Shown here in pieces: positions 16,550 to 30,747 of a DNA stretch of 64,000 nt (positions within the stretch are counted from its first letter, which is position 1; each line of letters begins with the position of its first letter). The stretch comes from Aspidiotus rigidus. Lineage: Eukaryota; Arthropoda; Insecta; Hemiptera; Diaspididae. A model generated the notes under the pieces. It did not search any database and had not been told where the DNA came from. It saw only the letters and a list, made by a program, of their open reading frames with translations. Location: contig JAVHKY010000013.1 in assembly GCA_035079385.1 (NCBI GenBank), forward strand, positions 5,950,001-6,014,000, read 5' to 3'. A program made the translations under genes and the position numbers.

Positions 16550-17677
16550 TCAGAAATGATGCGTATCAGAAGGAAGGACGTGTTTCAAAGCTTGAATGTG
16601 GTTAAATTTTGATTTTTCAACACGCAATCGCTGCTTGAAAAGTTGTGGCGCTGATTTTGGCTTCAATGGACACTTTGTTCGATGCAGCATTGCAGTCCAT
16701 TCATCTTCTGAATGTCTCAACTTGTAATACAACTCACCATGTGGTTGATAATACAATGCGCGGAGGTCGACAACAACTGCATCTCCAGTTTTTGACCCTG
16801 GACGGATTGATGAATAGAAGTTGAAGAACTTGGCAGAGTAGTCCCGAAATTCATTGAATTGCCAGTACTTGACGTTATATGGTTTTGGATGAATCCTTGC
16901 AGCTTGACAGGATGAAATGTACATACTTGGTTGGTAAATTTCTTTTTTTGCAAATTTTCTTTTTATGGTCGAATGCATAGAGTCGCACTCCATTTGAGTG
17001 TGACCCTTTTCTAAGTACTTCTGAACAATTGAAATTTTCTTTTCCATAGCAAGATTAATCAAGGCATTGGCTACCACAACATTCCTGTTCTGATAACAAC
17101 AACCGTCACTCCAAATGATGATCTCATCTCCTGGGACAAAAGGTATGTTTTCATTGATAAATGTAGTTATCATCGTTGCGAATACATTCGAGGACAAATC
17201 ACCCTGAGATTCATCCCACAAGTAGCAAAATCCTTCCTTAGAACGAGCATCATAAAAAGTAAAATTGTGCACTGCTAATTTAGTTTTATAGTACGATGCT
17301 GAAGCTTTTAAGACAGGGCAAACCATTACTGCTTGCACGTCCATGGAATAAACAAATTTCTTCTTTGGGTCAGCCAAGTCCTTCTCTTTTTCTTTCTGTG
17401 CTTCGTTTTTTTTTTCAATATGAGAATGATAAATCTCCTCCGTGATGTCAGGATTCTTAATACGATGCCCAACACAGACATCACATTGGTCTTTCCTCGG
17501 CTCAAAAATACTGATTTTATCTTCTGCGATAACGTCCAAGAAACAAATTCGTGAGATTGGTTTCACTTCTTTCTTCTGACAGTATTTGCAAAATTCTCGA
17601 TATAAGTGTGACTGACTGTCCCATACTGGCTCTAGAAACAATCTGTCAATTTTTTCTCGAATATAATGGGATGGCAT
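16550..17677 (-). CDS. Intact 375-codon 3' frame of the DUF7869-type gene (putative catalytic core)
   Basis: This is the uninterrupted part of the gene above. It begins at an internal methionine (MPSHYIREKIDRL), but the same frame continues upstream through a TAG, so the ATG is probably not the true start. Residues 90-106 are a Lys/Glu-rich helix, followed by the strand FVYSMDVQ. Spacing between the candidate acids is 77 residues (D113 to D191) and 38 residues (D191 to E230). The C-terminus ends SDTHHF. If translated alone it would keep the whole putative catalytic region while losing the N-terminal DNA-binding candidate. Confidence 0.7.
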   Translation of the reverse strand: MPSHYIREKIDRLFLEPVWDSQSHLYREFCKYCQKKEVKPISRICFLDVIAEDKISIFEPRKDQCDVCVGHRIKNPDITEEIYHSHIEKKNEAQKEKEKDLADPKKKFVYSMDVQAVMVCPVLKASASYYKTKLAVHNFTFYDARSKEGFCYLWDESQGDLSSNVFATMITTFINENIPFVPGDEIIIWSDGCCYQNRNVVVANALINLAMEKKISIVQKYLEKGHTQMECDSMHSTIKRKFAKKEIYQPSMYISSCQAARIHPKPYNVKYWQFNEFRDYSAKFFNFYSSIRPGSKTGDAVVVDLRALYYQPHGELYYKLRHSEDEWTAMLHRTKCPLKPKSAPQLFKQRLRVEKSKFNHIQALKHVLPSDTHHF

Positions 17678-20019: not shown

Positions 20020-20217
20020 ACGAATACAAACGCGTTTGATTTAAAATACTGTAACGAATGACAAAATTTTCTTTTATTAATTTTTTCTTTTTTTTCTTGT
20101 ACCGGTACACAATTTTTTATAAAATTGTGTACCGGTACAAGAAAAAAAAGAAAAAATTAATAAAAGAAAATTTTGTCATTCGTTACAGTATTTTAAATCA
20201 AACGCGTTTGTATTCGT
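20020..20217. repeat. Perfect 198-bp palindrome
   Basis: The arms, 20020-20116 and 20121-20217, are perfectly complementary (97 bp) with a 4-base loop, TTAT, between them. The centre reads TTGTACCGGTACACAATTTT and its complement. It is exactly bounded on the right by the partial LTR copy. It could be a palindromic MITE, a replication-fork or template-switch product, or an assembly artefact. Confidence 0.9.
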
Positions 20218-24786: not shown

Positions 24787-26374
24787 ACACAGGTACCTTA
24801 ACGTTACCACGAGGCTCAACCTTCTGGTTGACTCCCGGCTTTCTGATCTGCTTCATCATGGTGATTTCGATCCACTTATTCGCACCGTTAATAATGCTTG
24901 CCGCACTTTGGAGCTTAAGTTAAGGAATAGGAAGAATTGTCAACTTGCCTCCCTCCTCAATTCTAAAGCTTTGGCTAGTGAAAAAGATCGTATCGGTGAT
25001 GGTACCATTCAGCAATTGCAGCAACGTATCATAAATTATAGTGGAACTGAATTCAATGTTGACGAATTGTCCCTCCTGGAGAAGAGTCTGAAGTTTGGGT
25101 TACCCCCTCCTAAAAATCAGGAGACTTTGGCTAACGTTATGGCTGATCTCACAGTAAAATTGGCCCTGGTGTTAATATCCAAATGGTCCGGAAGACCCCG
25201 CTTACCAGCGTGAGTAATGCTGGAAGTGAATTGAGTAAGGGCCTGAGGAGGAAGATTAGGGAGGCTGGGTCAATTGTCACGAAAGCTGACAAAGGGAATG
25301 CCGTGGTGGTCATGGAGAAGTCCTCTTACACTTCCAGGGTCCACGATATGCTCAACCAATGCGGAGCTCAGGAGAATGCCCAGTTCAACTTTCCTAATTT
25401 TGTAAAAGAGGTTAGGTTTCTCGTTAACAATAGTAAATTTAACCAAAAAAGCCATTTTGGAACCTAACCCCGTCCCTCCTCTCCTTTACGGGCTACCAAA
25501 AATTCATAAGGAAGGAGTACCTATGCGACCCGTGGTTTCATTTGTCGCCTCGGCGACCTACCTTGCAAAATTTCTTGATCGCTGGTTTAAATCTAGAGTA
25601 GAGTTCGAGTCTCCCCATTCTGTATTGAATTCGTGTACCCTCGCCAACAATCTGAAGGATGTTTCCCTCCCTCTGGGTTCAACTTTATGCTCCTTTGATG
25701 TGATGGGGCTATTTCCCAACATCCCAAAGGCTGTTACTATGCAGCGGATGGGCGAGTTACTTGTAAAATTTGGTGTCCCTCATGAGGAAATGGGCGAAAT
25801 TTTTGACCTATTAAGGGTCTGTTGGTTCCCGACTTTTGGTAAATTTAATGGTAAATTCTACGAGCTCCCTGAAGAAGTGGGGATCCCTATTGGATCTCCT
25901 CTGGGTTCTTTCATTTCAGAAGTTTTCATGTCTAAATTTGAGGGCGACCTGTTCTCTTCAGGCCGGGTGTTTGTGAGTCATATACACTATTGGCACAAGT
26001 ACGTTGACGACGTTTTGTGTGCGTGGACCGGTCCAACAGAACTCCTTGGTGAGTTTCTTGATTATTTAAACAGCTTTTACTCTTCCATAAAATTTAAACT
26101 GGAAGTTGGTGGCTCCGTTATAAACTTTTTGGACTTGTCGAATGTCCATTTCCGTCGCTGACGGCGTCCATCTATTTGGTATTTACAGAAAAAATACCTC
26201 GACCGATATTACCGTCCACGGGTCGTCATTTGTACTTGTTGCCCACAAAGTTGCTACTGTTGATAGCCTGATACATCGCTTGATTCATATCCCATTGAGT
26301 CAAGCCGCTTTCCAGAAAGAATTAATGACTATAAAACAGAATCAATGCGTTTTTTAATTTTACGGTCATCCATC

Positions 26375-26488
26375 ATAGAGAAATATACTCACAGAGAGTA
26401 ACAAAACAAATACAAGAACCGCACAATAATATAAACAAACCGAGCGCTTTCGACTAAACAGTCATTCTCACGGTATAGAAAGCGACTC
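26375..26488 (-). repeat. Left 114-bp inverted arm of the insertion
   Basis: Exact reverse complement of 27511-27624. Contains CCGAGCGCTTTCGACTAAAC, which is the hammerhead-like hairpin on the minus strand (26471-26447). It abuts the poly(T) tract. Confidence 0.9.
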
Positions 26489-26526
26489 TTTTTTTTTTTT
26501 TTTTTTTTTTTCGTAAATCTTTTATT
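26489..26526 (-). terminator. Poly(A) signal and templated poly(A) tract
   Basis: Minus strand: AATAAA (26526-26521), nine bases, then A23 (26511-26489) ending at the PLE-type arm. Signal plus tail at this spacing marks the 3' end of a processed transcript. Confidence 0.7.
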
Positions 26527-26982
26527 TTCCTTTCGAATTCATAACACTACTAAAATTCTAAATTTCTTCAAAATTTTACTTAATTTATTTTTATCTTAAT
26601 ACAGTACCGTTACTTATTACATTTTTCGTAAAAAAAAAAAAAAAAAAAAGAAGGGGAAGAAAATATTCATGAACCCTGCAAATATTGTAAACGAGTAAAA
26701 CACACGCAGTCCGGACAAATAAATTACAGTAATAAAAAAATTATTACAAGCTTTCTTGCAATTGTCAGAGGGTATCAAAGTAAACGATTTTCAAAACACT
26801 CCTTCATAGAAGAGAAAAAAAATAATGGTAAATAGAAGCGCGTGGTCCAACGAAATTTATATATAATATAGTTATCTTAAATAATTAGAAATCCTACATA
26901 TCATTATGGGTATTTACGAATCAACCGAGAAATATATAATCCACGATTACGAATCGAATGAAGAAAAAACGATAAAATAGAA

Positions 26983-27492
26983 TTATTTTTCAGAAGCCGC
27001 ATTTGCACTCAGCCTAAATGCGGCTGAATGCCTCCAAAAATACGGCTTCATCATTAACACAGTATCGAAATCTGGACATTTAGAATAAGGAGCTAATCGT
27101 TTCGACTTATCTTCAAATCGTTGGCAAATTTTTTGTTCGTCATTTCGTAAGTTTTTCATCGACCCCTCCATTTTGTCATATACTTTTCGAAGCACATCTA
27201 CTGGTGAATGTTGGGCATCATGGTCAAGGCCATGTCTGACGTCCTTTGCATTTTCGAGGAATTCATCAAATTCTTGCTGTCGCGGTGGATGATGACGAGT
27301 TTCATACTTGAAATCATCCGCATTGATGAACTCACCAAGTTGAGGTCTGTTGAGCATGGCATTGGGTGTTTTCCTAGTTAATGGCGCTTTTCTTTTATTA
27401 GGGGATTTATTTTCGTTCGAAATGCCTTTTCTTTTTCCAGAATAGCAATCTAGAATTGCGCACGCTGCCTCCCCGATATAAGTATACCCCAT
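26983..27492 (-). CDS. 169-residue protein of unknown function in a probable retrocopy
   Basis: Uninterrupted frame beginning MGYTYIGEAACAIL and ending LSANAASEK. It has a Lys/Arg-rich segment at about residues 19-43 (possible nuclear localisation), a middle part with FEDKSKRL and QEFDEFLENA helices, and a PYSKCPDFDTV stretch near the C-terminus. I do not recognise a family. The start codon lies 18 bp inside the right arm boundary. No intron is visible and a poly(A) tract ends the unit, consistent with a processed copy of a host mRNA. An intact frame suggests a recent event or maintained function. It could instead be a gene native to a non-autonomous element. Confidence 0.55.
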   Translation of the reverse strand: MGYTYIGEAACAILDCYSGKRKGISNENKSPNKRKAPLTRKTPNAMLNRPQLGEFINADDFKYETRHHPPRQQEFDEFLENAKDVRHGLDHDAQHSPVDVLRKVYDKMEGSMKNLRNDEQKICQRFEDKSKRLAPYSKCPDFDTVLMMKPYFWRHSAAFRLSANAASEK

Positions 27493-27510
27493 TTCTACGT
27501 TGCAAAGGTC

Positions 27511-27624
27511 GAGTCGCTTTCTATACCGTGAGAATGACTGTTTAGTCGAAAGCGCTCGGTTTGTTTATATTATTGTGCGGTTCTTGTATTTGTTTTGTTA
27601 CTCTCTGTGAGTATATTTCTCTAT
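27511..27624 (+). repeat. Right 114-bp inverted arm, PLE-A tail-like
   Basis: Reads GAGTCGCTTTCTATACCGTG ... CGAAAGCGCTCGG ... TTACTCTCTGTGAGTA. The tail after the PLE stop at 28310 reads CAGTCGCTTTCCACACTTCG ... CGAAAGCGCTCG ... TTACTCCTTTGGGTA, so the two are homologous. Confidence 0.85.
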
Positions 27625-28260
27625 GACTATAAAACACCTGGCTAGAGTCAATCAGGTCAGGATCGATGTCGACCTTATGGTTCGTAGGAGGCTCACAAGG
27701 AAATGCCTTGACTCTACGACCTCCCTTCCCCGGGATTTACACCAAGATGGTAGAAAACGGTGGATTAAGCTCCAGTTTCTGGGCAAGTTTTCATCGCAGT
27801 TGGGCCGTATCCTCCGCCCCGTCGTTTTTCGGCTAGCCTTTTATAATGTCAACACTGCGAAGAGCCTTTTCGTCGAATTAAAGGACCCTATCTATCCCAG
27901 TGACTGAGAGGGGAGCAGTTTATAGGGTGGTTTGTGGAGATTGCCCTAGCGTATATATAGGGATGACCAGCCGTCAACTACAAATTAGAGTTGACAAACA
28001 CAAAAAAGCTTGGAGGAAAAAGAAAGTAGGGGAGTCAGCCTTTGCTGATCATTTCATCGAAAGTGGTCACAATTTTAAAGAGGGGTCCAAAGTCCTCCTT
28101 TATAGGGAAAACTACTTCAAACGTCTGGCCCTTGAGGAAATAGAAATCCTCCGACATCGGAATAATACGTAGTAGTGTTACCATTCTAAACAGGTACATT
28201 CCTGAAGAAGGATTGATCGAATTAGTCTACGGGAATGATTCACATTTCGATGACTCGTAG

Positions 28261-28450
28261 CTTCGATCATGATTTCGTTTGATGTCGCTTGTTCTTGTTG
28301 GTGTTGGGTTCAGTCGCTTTCCACACTTCGAGAATGGCTGATTAGCCGAAAGCGCTCGTATTTTCAATTTTCGTACGGTCTTTTGCATCTTTCTTTCGTG
28401 TTACTCCTTTGGGTATCCTCGTCATTATGGATGACTGTAATTTCATACAA
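28261..28450 (+). mobile_element. 3' tail of PLE family A copy 2 with hammerhead-like hairpin
   Basis: Follows the reconstructed PLE stop. At 28328-28352 it holds TCGAGAA, a GGCT-GATT-AGCC hairpin and GAAAG. The core is degenerate relative to CUGANGA. The likely end is near ATTATGGATGACTG (about 28435). Confidence 0.7.
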
Positions 28451-30747
28451 AAACGTATCGATTCAATAAATTTTATCTTCAAATAATTCAAATTATCTTG
28501 ATATAAATATTAGGATTGAAAAGGAACCAAACGATTTTAGCGATCGTAATCGATATATCGAATTCTATGGTAAAACATCGACTAGTTGATATATTGACTC
28601 TCATATCATTACATTGATTTTTTAAAATCAATATGGAATTCAATAAGGGAACTCAGTAGAATGTTGTCTCCTGATCAATAAGGATACTATTGCTCAATAG
28701 TATGACGCCCTGCTCCTCTATTTACCAGCCTAAAATACGTATTTAGAGCGTGGTATAGTAGAGGTCATTAGCCTGTGCACGCATTGAAAGAAAACAGCTT
28801 GAAAATTTTGCGAGCTCCAAGGTAGGTCAAGGTCACAAGGTCACTCATTGAGTCACTAGCTGAAACAAGTTTCCTCTTGAAAACAGAACCCGACTGGTAA
28901 ACATGATAGCTCGTTGGAGTTCGTCAATGTATTCATGCCATTGATCGAAAGAGAGGGGAGAAAGCGGGAGGGAGTAGTTATTTCGAGCTCACTTACACCC
29001 ACCTTTCCTTATTGATAACATGGATGAAGATGGATGACGTCAAAGGCAAACTGATAAAAGTTGTCGAATTAGCAGAGTATATTTGTAGCGACTATTTTGT
29101 AGTTTAATGAATTGATGAACTGTTGAGAAGAGGAGGCGTCATAATAAGGAGAATTAATAGTTGATGAGGATTTTAACCAGTAGCGCTATCAAATGAAGGA
29201 AAATATTTAGATGGAGCATTAAATTTTCTTTTCAAACTCGAAGGTTGCTCGTTTATTTTAGAATAACTGCAAAGCCAAATCCAAAATTGAATTATGAATC
29301 ACCGGAGAGGTACATTAAGTCTCTCAAACAAGCATCTAATGTTTCGTAAAATGTGACGCTCCCCTAGCACAAATTAAAACTTAGAATATAACCTGTGTAT
29401 CACTTGTTGCTCTTTTTCTACCTTACAAATCTGGAGACGACACGAAGTTATTTTGTTCATTACCGATCCTACATGGTTCGTAAAGTATCAAATAACCAGC
29501 GCGGTCCATAAATATTATCAATAGGCCTACTGGTAAAAGCGCGCAAATTTATGTAGTAAACAAACCATACAGCATTCTTTCGCTATAAAGACTACGCGAC
29601 GCGGCGACGAGTCTTAATAGTGCGTACGCCAAATTCAATCTTAACGCAAGCTGCTGAGAAGGAAAAAGCGAGAAAAAGAAAAGAAAGAGCAGAAAAATGT
29701 ATAACGTATCACTTTTCTCGACATTAGCATATGTTGTATTAGCTATTGTATAGGGTATGAGTATGTCAATAAAACGTGTTAAGTAAATCGGAATGCGAGT
29801 AAATATAAAAGAGATGGTACGGGACTATACGTATACGTATAGAGAACCTTTACAGACGCAGCAGTTTATAAAGTAAATAATTACATTCGAGCGATGCTGT
29901 AAGAATAAATAAAGAGTCGATGCGCGAGTTAGCTGCAATTATAAATCCGGTCCGCTATATCCATCCGCCAACCGCCATACCCGACTATGTCTTTGACTTC
30001 TGTCCAACACGCCATCCGCCAGTTCATCTTACCTCTTATTTACATAGCAGCGCGATAAGCGCGTGTCTTTCCGGCTACCGTACTGAGTAAATTACTCCTA
30101 TATACAGTATATTTACTTATATTTTTTTCTCTTACTTTCCTCCTTTCGTTTATTTCTTTATTTCTCCGTGGCAGACATTGTGCAAAAAGAGACATCAAGA
30201 CAATGCCGGAAAAAAACCTAATGTAGATCACGTACACACTATTCATGATGATGGATACTGTTACATTCGCCACGAAAATTCCATCTTTTGTTTGCCTTTC
30301 ACATATATTTAGCGTATACCTACGTATCATCTAGGGCTTCCAAAATTTGACATTTTAAAGATGAATCGGCGCTTTTGAAAACCTTAATACAAATAGTTGA
30401 CATGACGTGGGATTCTAATAAATGTTGTAGGTGTTGTGAAGATACAACGACTCCATGTACAAGAGGAAAGTGCGTGGAATTGAGTTCTCATGCGGTCCAA
30501 TTTCACCATATTATACCGCGTATAAGCACGAAACCCGTTTTTTTGTGCATATTTTATGGAAACCATAACCTTTGATTCCTAGCGACATGAAGTGATTTTG
30601 AGTTTTCAGCCTAGAAAACAAATTGGAGAGTAGTAAAACTTCATGGATTCTAACCAGAATCACTGATGAATTATACCAAACCCTATTCATCTCATGATGT
30701 GATCAAAGAAAAACTTCTAGTAAGGTCTACGAGCCCATCAATTTGAA
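28451..30747. other. No recognisable gene
   Basis: 2.3 kb of AT-rich DNA. There is an ATACTATTGCTCAATAGTAT palindrome near 28684. Frames are short and motif-free. Confidence 0.45.

Follow-up and report, generated by a model that had tools for sequence, protein, structure and literature searches.

Within the 64-kb window (the whole stretch of DNA that was analysed) lies a frame-damaged Penelope-like element (PLE), on the plus strand at 24790–28465, with its left boundary placed approximately and by eye. This outer element comprises a reverse transcriptase segment (RVT_1 match at 25457–26158, E = 1.4e-7), a later segment which aligns to the metagenomic PLE proteins P0001 and P0003 and which we take from its motif to be GIY-YIG-like, and a 3' pLTR with its tail (28312–28465). 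Its coding sequence is interrupted by an insert of 1284 bp (26339–27622) lying between two exact 14-bp direct repeats of sequence ATGACTATAAAACA (26325–26338 and 27623–27636). The 64 kb hold no other exact pair of 14-mers spaced 1200–1400 bp apart, in a scan confined to words using more than two different letters. Once the flanks are joined at a single copy of the repeat, a gap-free match runs across the site to each of the three metagenomic PLE proteins tried, out of 120 listed (63.6% identity over 151 aa for P0001, 148–298; 63.6% over 151 aa for P0002; 63.9% over 158 aa for P0003), and with the insert left in place each of these alignments breaks in two at the site. Both the target-site duplication and the match across the joined flanks are read directly from the DNA. 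The outer PLE is damaged elsewhere too, the alignments changing frame on either side of the site, near 140 and 595 in joined-sequence coordinates, and is older than the insert that it received. A search for its own target duplication found no match of at least 7 bp in the stretch scanned.

On the minus strand the insert reads as an inverted pLTR, 1022 nt (26489–27510) containing a 169-codon frame, AATAAA and an A23 tract, a direct pLTR, and a tail. The pLTRs in inverted orientation at the two ends, the tail of 34–38 nt on one side only and the 14-bp duplication are features of Penelope-mediated insertion, the one-sided tail being an optional one, and the poly(A) tract with its upstream AATAAA is a feature of processed retrocopies. 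There is no reverse transcriptase and GIY-YIG endonuclease ORF inside the insert, whose sole frame encodes 169 aa without a significant Pfam family. The initial annotation had proposed a 1284-bp insert with a 14-bp target duplication, perfect 114-bp arms homologous to the PLE end, and a 169-codon frame followed by AATAAA and A23. The limits of the insert were reproduced exactly, as were the frame and its polyadenylation features at the coordinates given below, the homology of the arms was confirmed, and the arms proved perfect over 116 bp, the earlier value lying within the ambiguity of a 4-bp overlap with the duplication.

Inverted pLTR arms and a one-sided tail

The two arms, the direct pLTR (26373–26488, minus strand; the 3' arm, sense to the cDNA) and the inverted pLTR (27511–27626, of which 27511–27622, plus strand, forms the 5' arm of the insert), are complementary at 116 of 116 positions, and no longer perfect inverted repeat is listed in the window (seed 24). 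Strictly within the insert lie 112 bp of the inverted arm; the remaining 4 bp at its outer end (ATGA) overlap the target duplication. Such perfect agreement suggests a single recent event. Compared with the 3' end of the outer PLE (28312–28464), the direct arm with its tail is 72.6% identical over 157 columns and the right arm 74.1% identical over 108 columns. Because of the 72.6% identity, the ends of the insert derive, on sequence comparison, from a PLE subfamily related to, but different from, that of the outer element. A 29-base pLTR pattern occurs at three places in the window, all of them at the insert and outer-PLE locus, and a 27-base pattern has no match in viral_contigs.

The inward ends of both arms fall on the same base, in the sequence GAGTCGC, and on one side the A23 tract adjoins it. 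Such coincidence is expected if a template RNA ended at this base, and on the strength of the two arms and one homologue the base is presumably the RNA 5' end. Immediately before AGTCGC both arms carry G (26488 and 27511) and the outer PLE has C; the G could be a copied cap nucleotide or merely the sequence of the family. A stem that reads GGCT/AGCC in the outer PLE reads GACT/AGTC in the insert, with one compensatory difference. The predicted folds of the pLTR RNAs are not more stable than those of shuffled sequences (z = −0.40 and −0.76), so we claim no RNA structure. Hammerhead ribozymes are reported in other PLEs and are not a required feature of them. A hammerhead in the arms was considered and rejected: 26300–28700 yielded no Rfam match at the gathering score nor at E up to 10, and the CTGANGA and GAAAC motifs are absent from the pLTRs.

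The tail (26339–26376, minus strand) forms the 3' end of the direct pLTR and is found on this left arm only. It is 38 nt long, or 34 nt if the ATGA overlap is assigned to the arm, is homologous to the tail of the outer PLE, and ends at the same ...GATTC base. The insert tail can be read as MDDRKIKKRID and the outer one as MDDCNFIQKRIDS; the tail would be the start of a PLE ORF. Similar arrangements are described in the excerpted text of two reports: in Adineta vaga Pen2a the first ORF codons lie in the pLTR and are continued by the tail (PMC3846280), and in the Poseidon element of Anolis the tail is the stretch between two adjacent reverse transcription start sites inside the start of the ORF (PMC11167929). 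By this analogy, the outer ends of the insert, which are 34–38 nt apart on the template, fit two start sites used on two target strands. Loose scans for the tail motif among the 120 PLE relatives listed, many of which are fragments, returned one internal match (P0028) and three unrelated N-termini, but no tail-like N-terminus.

The polyadenylated payload

The 169-codon ORF (26983–27492, minus strand, stop included) begins with an ATG at 27492 and its stop ends at 26983. It is followed by AATAAA at 26521–26526, 9 nt before the A tract, and by the A23 tract itself at 26489–26511, the longest homopolymer in the window, which directly abuts the first base of the pLTR. When the inner 1022 nt were simulated 2000 times with an order-1 Markov model, a single sequence had an ORF of at least 169 aa, and simulating the 528-nt ORF region alone likewise gave one in 2000. 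The GC content is 41% in the frame and 25% in the long AT-rich 3' part, and within the frame it is highest at the first codon position (0.50, 0.38 and 0.35). Judged on sequence, the payload has the marks of an mRNA in its rarely simulated frame, GC pattern, AATAAA and A23, and it would be a cellular one, from a host gene or perhaps from another transposon. Between the inverted pLTR and the ATG lie 18 nt (27493–27510, minus strand), either 5' UTR or truncated coding sequence. The frame is open across this junction and stays open upstream of the ATG up to a stop codon that lies within the arm; the cDNA may thus lack part of its 5' end, and the protein is possibly longer.

No name could be given to the 169-aa protein, as no significant relative was found in Pfam (E up to 10; only an insignificant repeat match, E = 0.085), in the PDB (best match E = 2.2) or in the protein database, where none of 20 candidates matched at E up to 10 and none of the 49 in a second search, run with a longer query frame admitting proteins of about 261–831 aa, was confirmed. 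One pattern match in viral_contigs and 17 in genome_contigs were likewise not confirmed, the latter result saying little because genome_contigs holds bacteria and archaea. A single-sequence AlphaFold model, made without an alignment, had a mean pLDDT of 44 and was too poor for a structure search.

Formation of the insert

We consider it probable, with some reserve, that the locus records a single chimeric insertion by a Penelope-like reverse transcriptase/endonuclease which switched onto a polyadenylated mRNA. The enzyme would have made staggered cuts, 14 nt apart, in the two strands of an AT-rich site within the older PLE copy, and each free 3' end would then have primed reverse transcription inside the first part of a PLE RNA, the one at a distal site, so that the tail was kept, and the other at a proximal site about 34–38 nt away, giving an arm without a tail. 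The 4-nt ATGA match between target and template could have helped the cDNA of one side. If the pLTR is taken as the 5' leader of the PLE, both cDNAs would have run through it to their common 5' end at GAGTCGC. There, one of the two would have moved to a new template, the poly(A) 3' end of another, polyadenylated mRNA, and continued along it as far as its 5' end or close to it, such that the order of first-strand synthesis would be tail, pLTR, poly(A) and mRNA body. Joining of the tail-less cDNA to the far end would have produced the target duplication together with the inverted arm. Read directly, as is the duplication, are the pair of arms, the tail on one side only, the end point common to both tails and the junction of poly(A) with pLTR; the identity of the enzyme, the order of events and the cellular origin of the mRNA are our reconstruction. 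If synthesis passes from a PLE RNA, at its 5' end, to an mRNA, at its 3' end, the product must have the order mRNA, A23, pLTR, tail. Template switching had been suggested in the initial annotation; what stands of that reading as observation is the polyadenylated cDNA between Penelope ends with a duplication, and the switch is the best explanation that we infer for it.

Ligation of the two RNAs before insertion could have taken the place of a template switch, as it would yield the same sequence; for LINE-1 chimeras, the excerpted text of PMC13174262 discusses both routes. The insert could otherwise belong to a normal non-autonomous Penelope family which full PLEs mobilise in trans and whose fixed payload includes the ORF and the A-tract, such that the chimera arose once, long ago, and the present copy is one of many. 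The ends of the insert have the standard Penelope structure, which was concluded to be cis-acting for mobilisation in trans (PMC3846280, as excerpted), but the inner 1022 nt have no second copy elsewhere in the 64-kb window, and the homogeneous A23 and intact frame suggest a young copy. These points weigh gently against such a family, which we think unlikely.

A history in two DNA-level steps, with an mRNA retrocopy of LINE type landing beside a PLE pLTR and later being carried along by a read-through PLE transcript, is decidedly improbable. For rotifer Penelopes it has been proposed that host DNA is captured between pLTRs and that inserts stem from read-through transcripts (PMC3846280, as excerpted), but here the A-tract ends exactly where the other arm ends, and chance insertion at that base is unlikely. 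An earlier, independent retrocopy is further disfavoured because the inner 1022 nt are not bordered by any direct repeat; the longest direct repeat within 60 nt of the ends of that segment is a 7-mer of the pLTR hairpin, which does not abut it. Misassembly is a known risk at long perfect inverted repeats, but an assembly or library artefact fusing a cDNA or repeat with PLE ends is very hard to credit, since it would not be expected to yield an exact 14-bp duplication, an unbroken match to the outer PLE across the joined flanks and a one-sided tail fitting known enzymology.

If the insert did form by a template switch, end-to-end switching, in which the enzyme leaves a PLE RNA at its 5' end and resumes at the 3' end of another RNA, may even be a normal step of Penelope replication, a suggestion that we make tentatively and with more doubt than conviction. 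Switching would be needed since synthesis begins within the first codons, where only the leader can be copied, and a cellular mRNA would be caught, poly(A) tail included, when it replaced the second PLE RNA.

Relation to known captures and chimeras

The initial annotation held that no element with such a layout had been described, which the literature does not bear out. In the excerpts of a 2013 study (PMC3846280), inverted pLTRs with a one-sided tail are part of the typical Penelope structure, and Pen3a pLTRs, with an 8-bp duplication, enclose an intron-containing NRPS gene of Adineta vaga; the same study also reports that a few further, unrelated sequences were captured between pLTRs and show duplications. 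Capture between pLTRs is consequently a known kind of event. As in the A. vaga case, the insert consists of a foreign sequence framed by pLTRs, one of them inverted, with a target duplication; neither contains PLE internal sequence, and mobilisation in trans was inferred for the rotifer capture (PMC3846280). The NRPS gene has, however, kept its introns and lies between two direct pLTRs, with an additional inverted one (PMC3846280), whereas the insert has a single direct pLTR and a single inverted pLTR, on either side of a cDNA whose AATAAA and A23 are joined to the pLTR 5' end. Inverted junctions with palindromes were read in the same excerpts as self-priming, possibly on an antisense template (PMC3846280); our proposal for the inverted arm differs from this and leaves the A. 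vaga palindromes unexplained.

The closest biochemical parallel to the ends of the insert is provided by the Anolis carolinensis Poseidon element in vitro, which according to the excerpted text of PMC11167929 cleaves and extends both target strands at AT-rich targets, with two adjacent internal start sites that bound a tail of 30–40 nt. The sequence of the insert would fit the same behaviour. The main start site lies 111–118 bp into the ORF in Poseidon versus about 33–36 nt after the putative ATG here, Poseidon has a hammerhead whereas none was detected in the pLTRs of the insert, and the excerpts report no switch of Poseidon onto a second mRNA (PMC11167929). Fusions of a second RNA to an element are known among LINEs, both as U6/L1, Alu/L1 and mRNA/L1 chimeras formed by template switching or RNA ligation (PMC13174262) and as MGL/WEIRD/Mg-SINE chimeras of the same kind in Magnaporthe (PMC2104539). 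These resemble the insert in having the second RNA upstream of the element part, mostly in sense orientation, and in their target duplications, but they are products of LINE enzymes, and the excerpts of both papers mention no inverted terminal copy at the opposite end (PMC13174262, PMC2104539).

What is apparently new is the signature of a mature mRNA, its poly(A), fused exactly to the 5' end of a pLTR, gene capture itself being already known. The titles and abstract openings among the literature matches listed contain no description of a poly(A)–pLTR fusion, a weak negative. If the payload is an mRNA, this junction would be genomic evidence of a polyadenylated sense RNA serving as template; it would extend Penelope gene capture to mature mRNAs and hint that PLEs build complete copies by moving from RNA to RNA. 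Should end-to-end switching be normal, Penelopes would be a source of pLTR-framed, polyadenylated retrogenes. The interest of the insert is that of a readable product from a poorly known replication cycle.

Elsewhere in the window, a second PLE-type frame at 47–1201, 71% identical to the metagenomic proteins P0001 and P0002, is found in the first PLE copy (1–1201). This copy shows only weak similarity to the pLTR after its stop and has no recognisable tail, and its protein has no relative in viral_contigs. Downstream of it lie an 85-bp inverted repeat (1960–2176; 92%) and a run of tandemly repeated 45-bp units (2482–2832). A perfect inverted repeat of 97 bp, its arms 4 nt apart, occurs at 20020–20217, beside a 125-aa minus-strand frame, and a 375-aa frame on the minus strand at 16550–17677, which has a weak DUF7869 match (E = 5.7e-6), probably comes from another mobile element.
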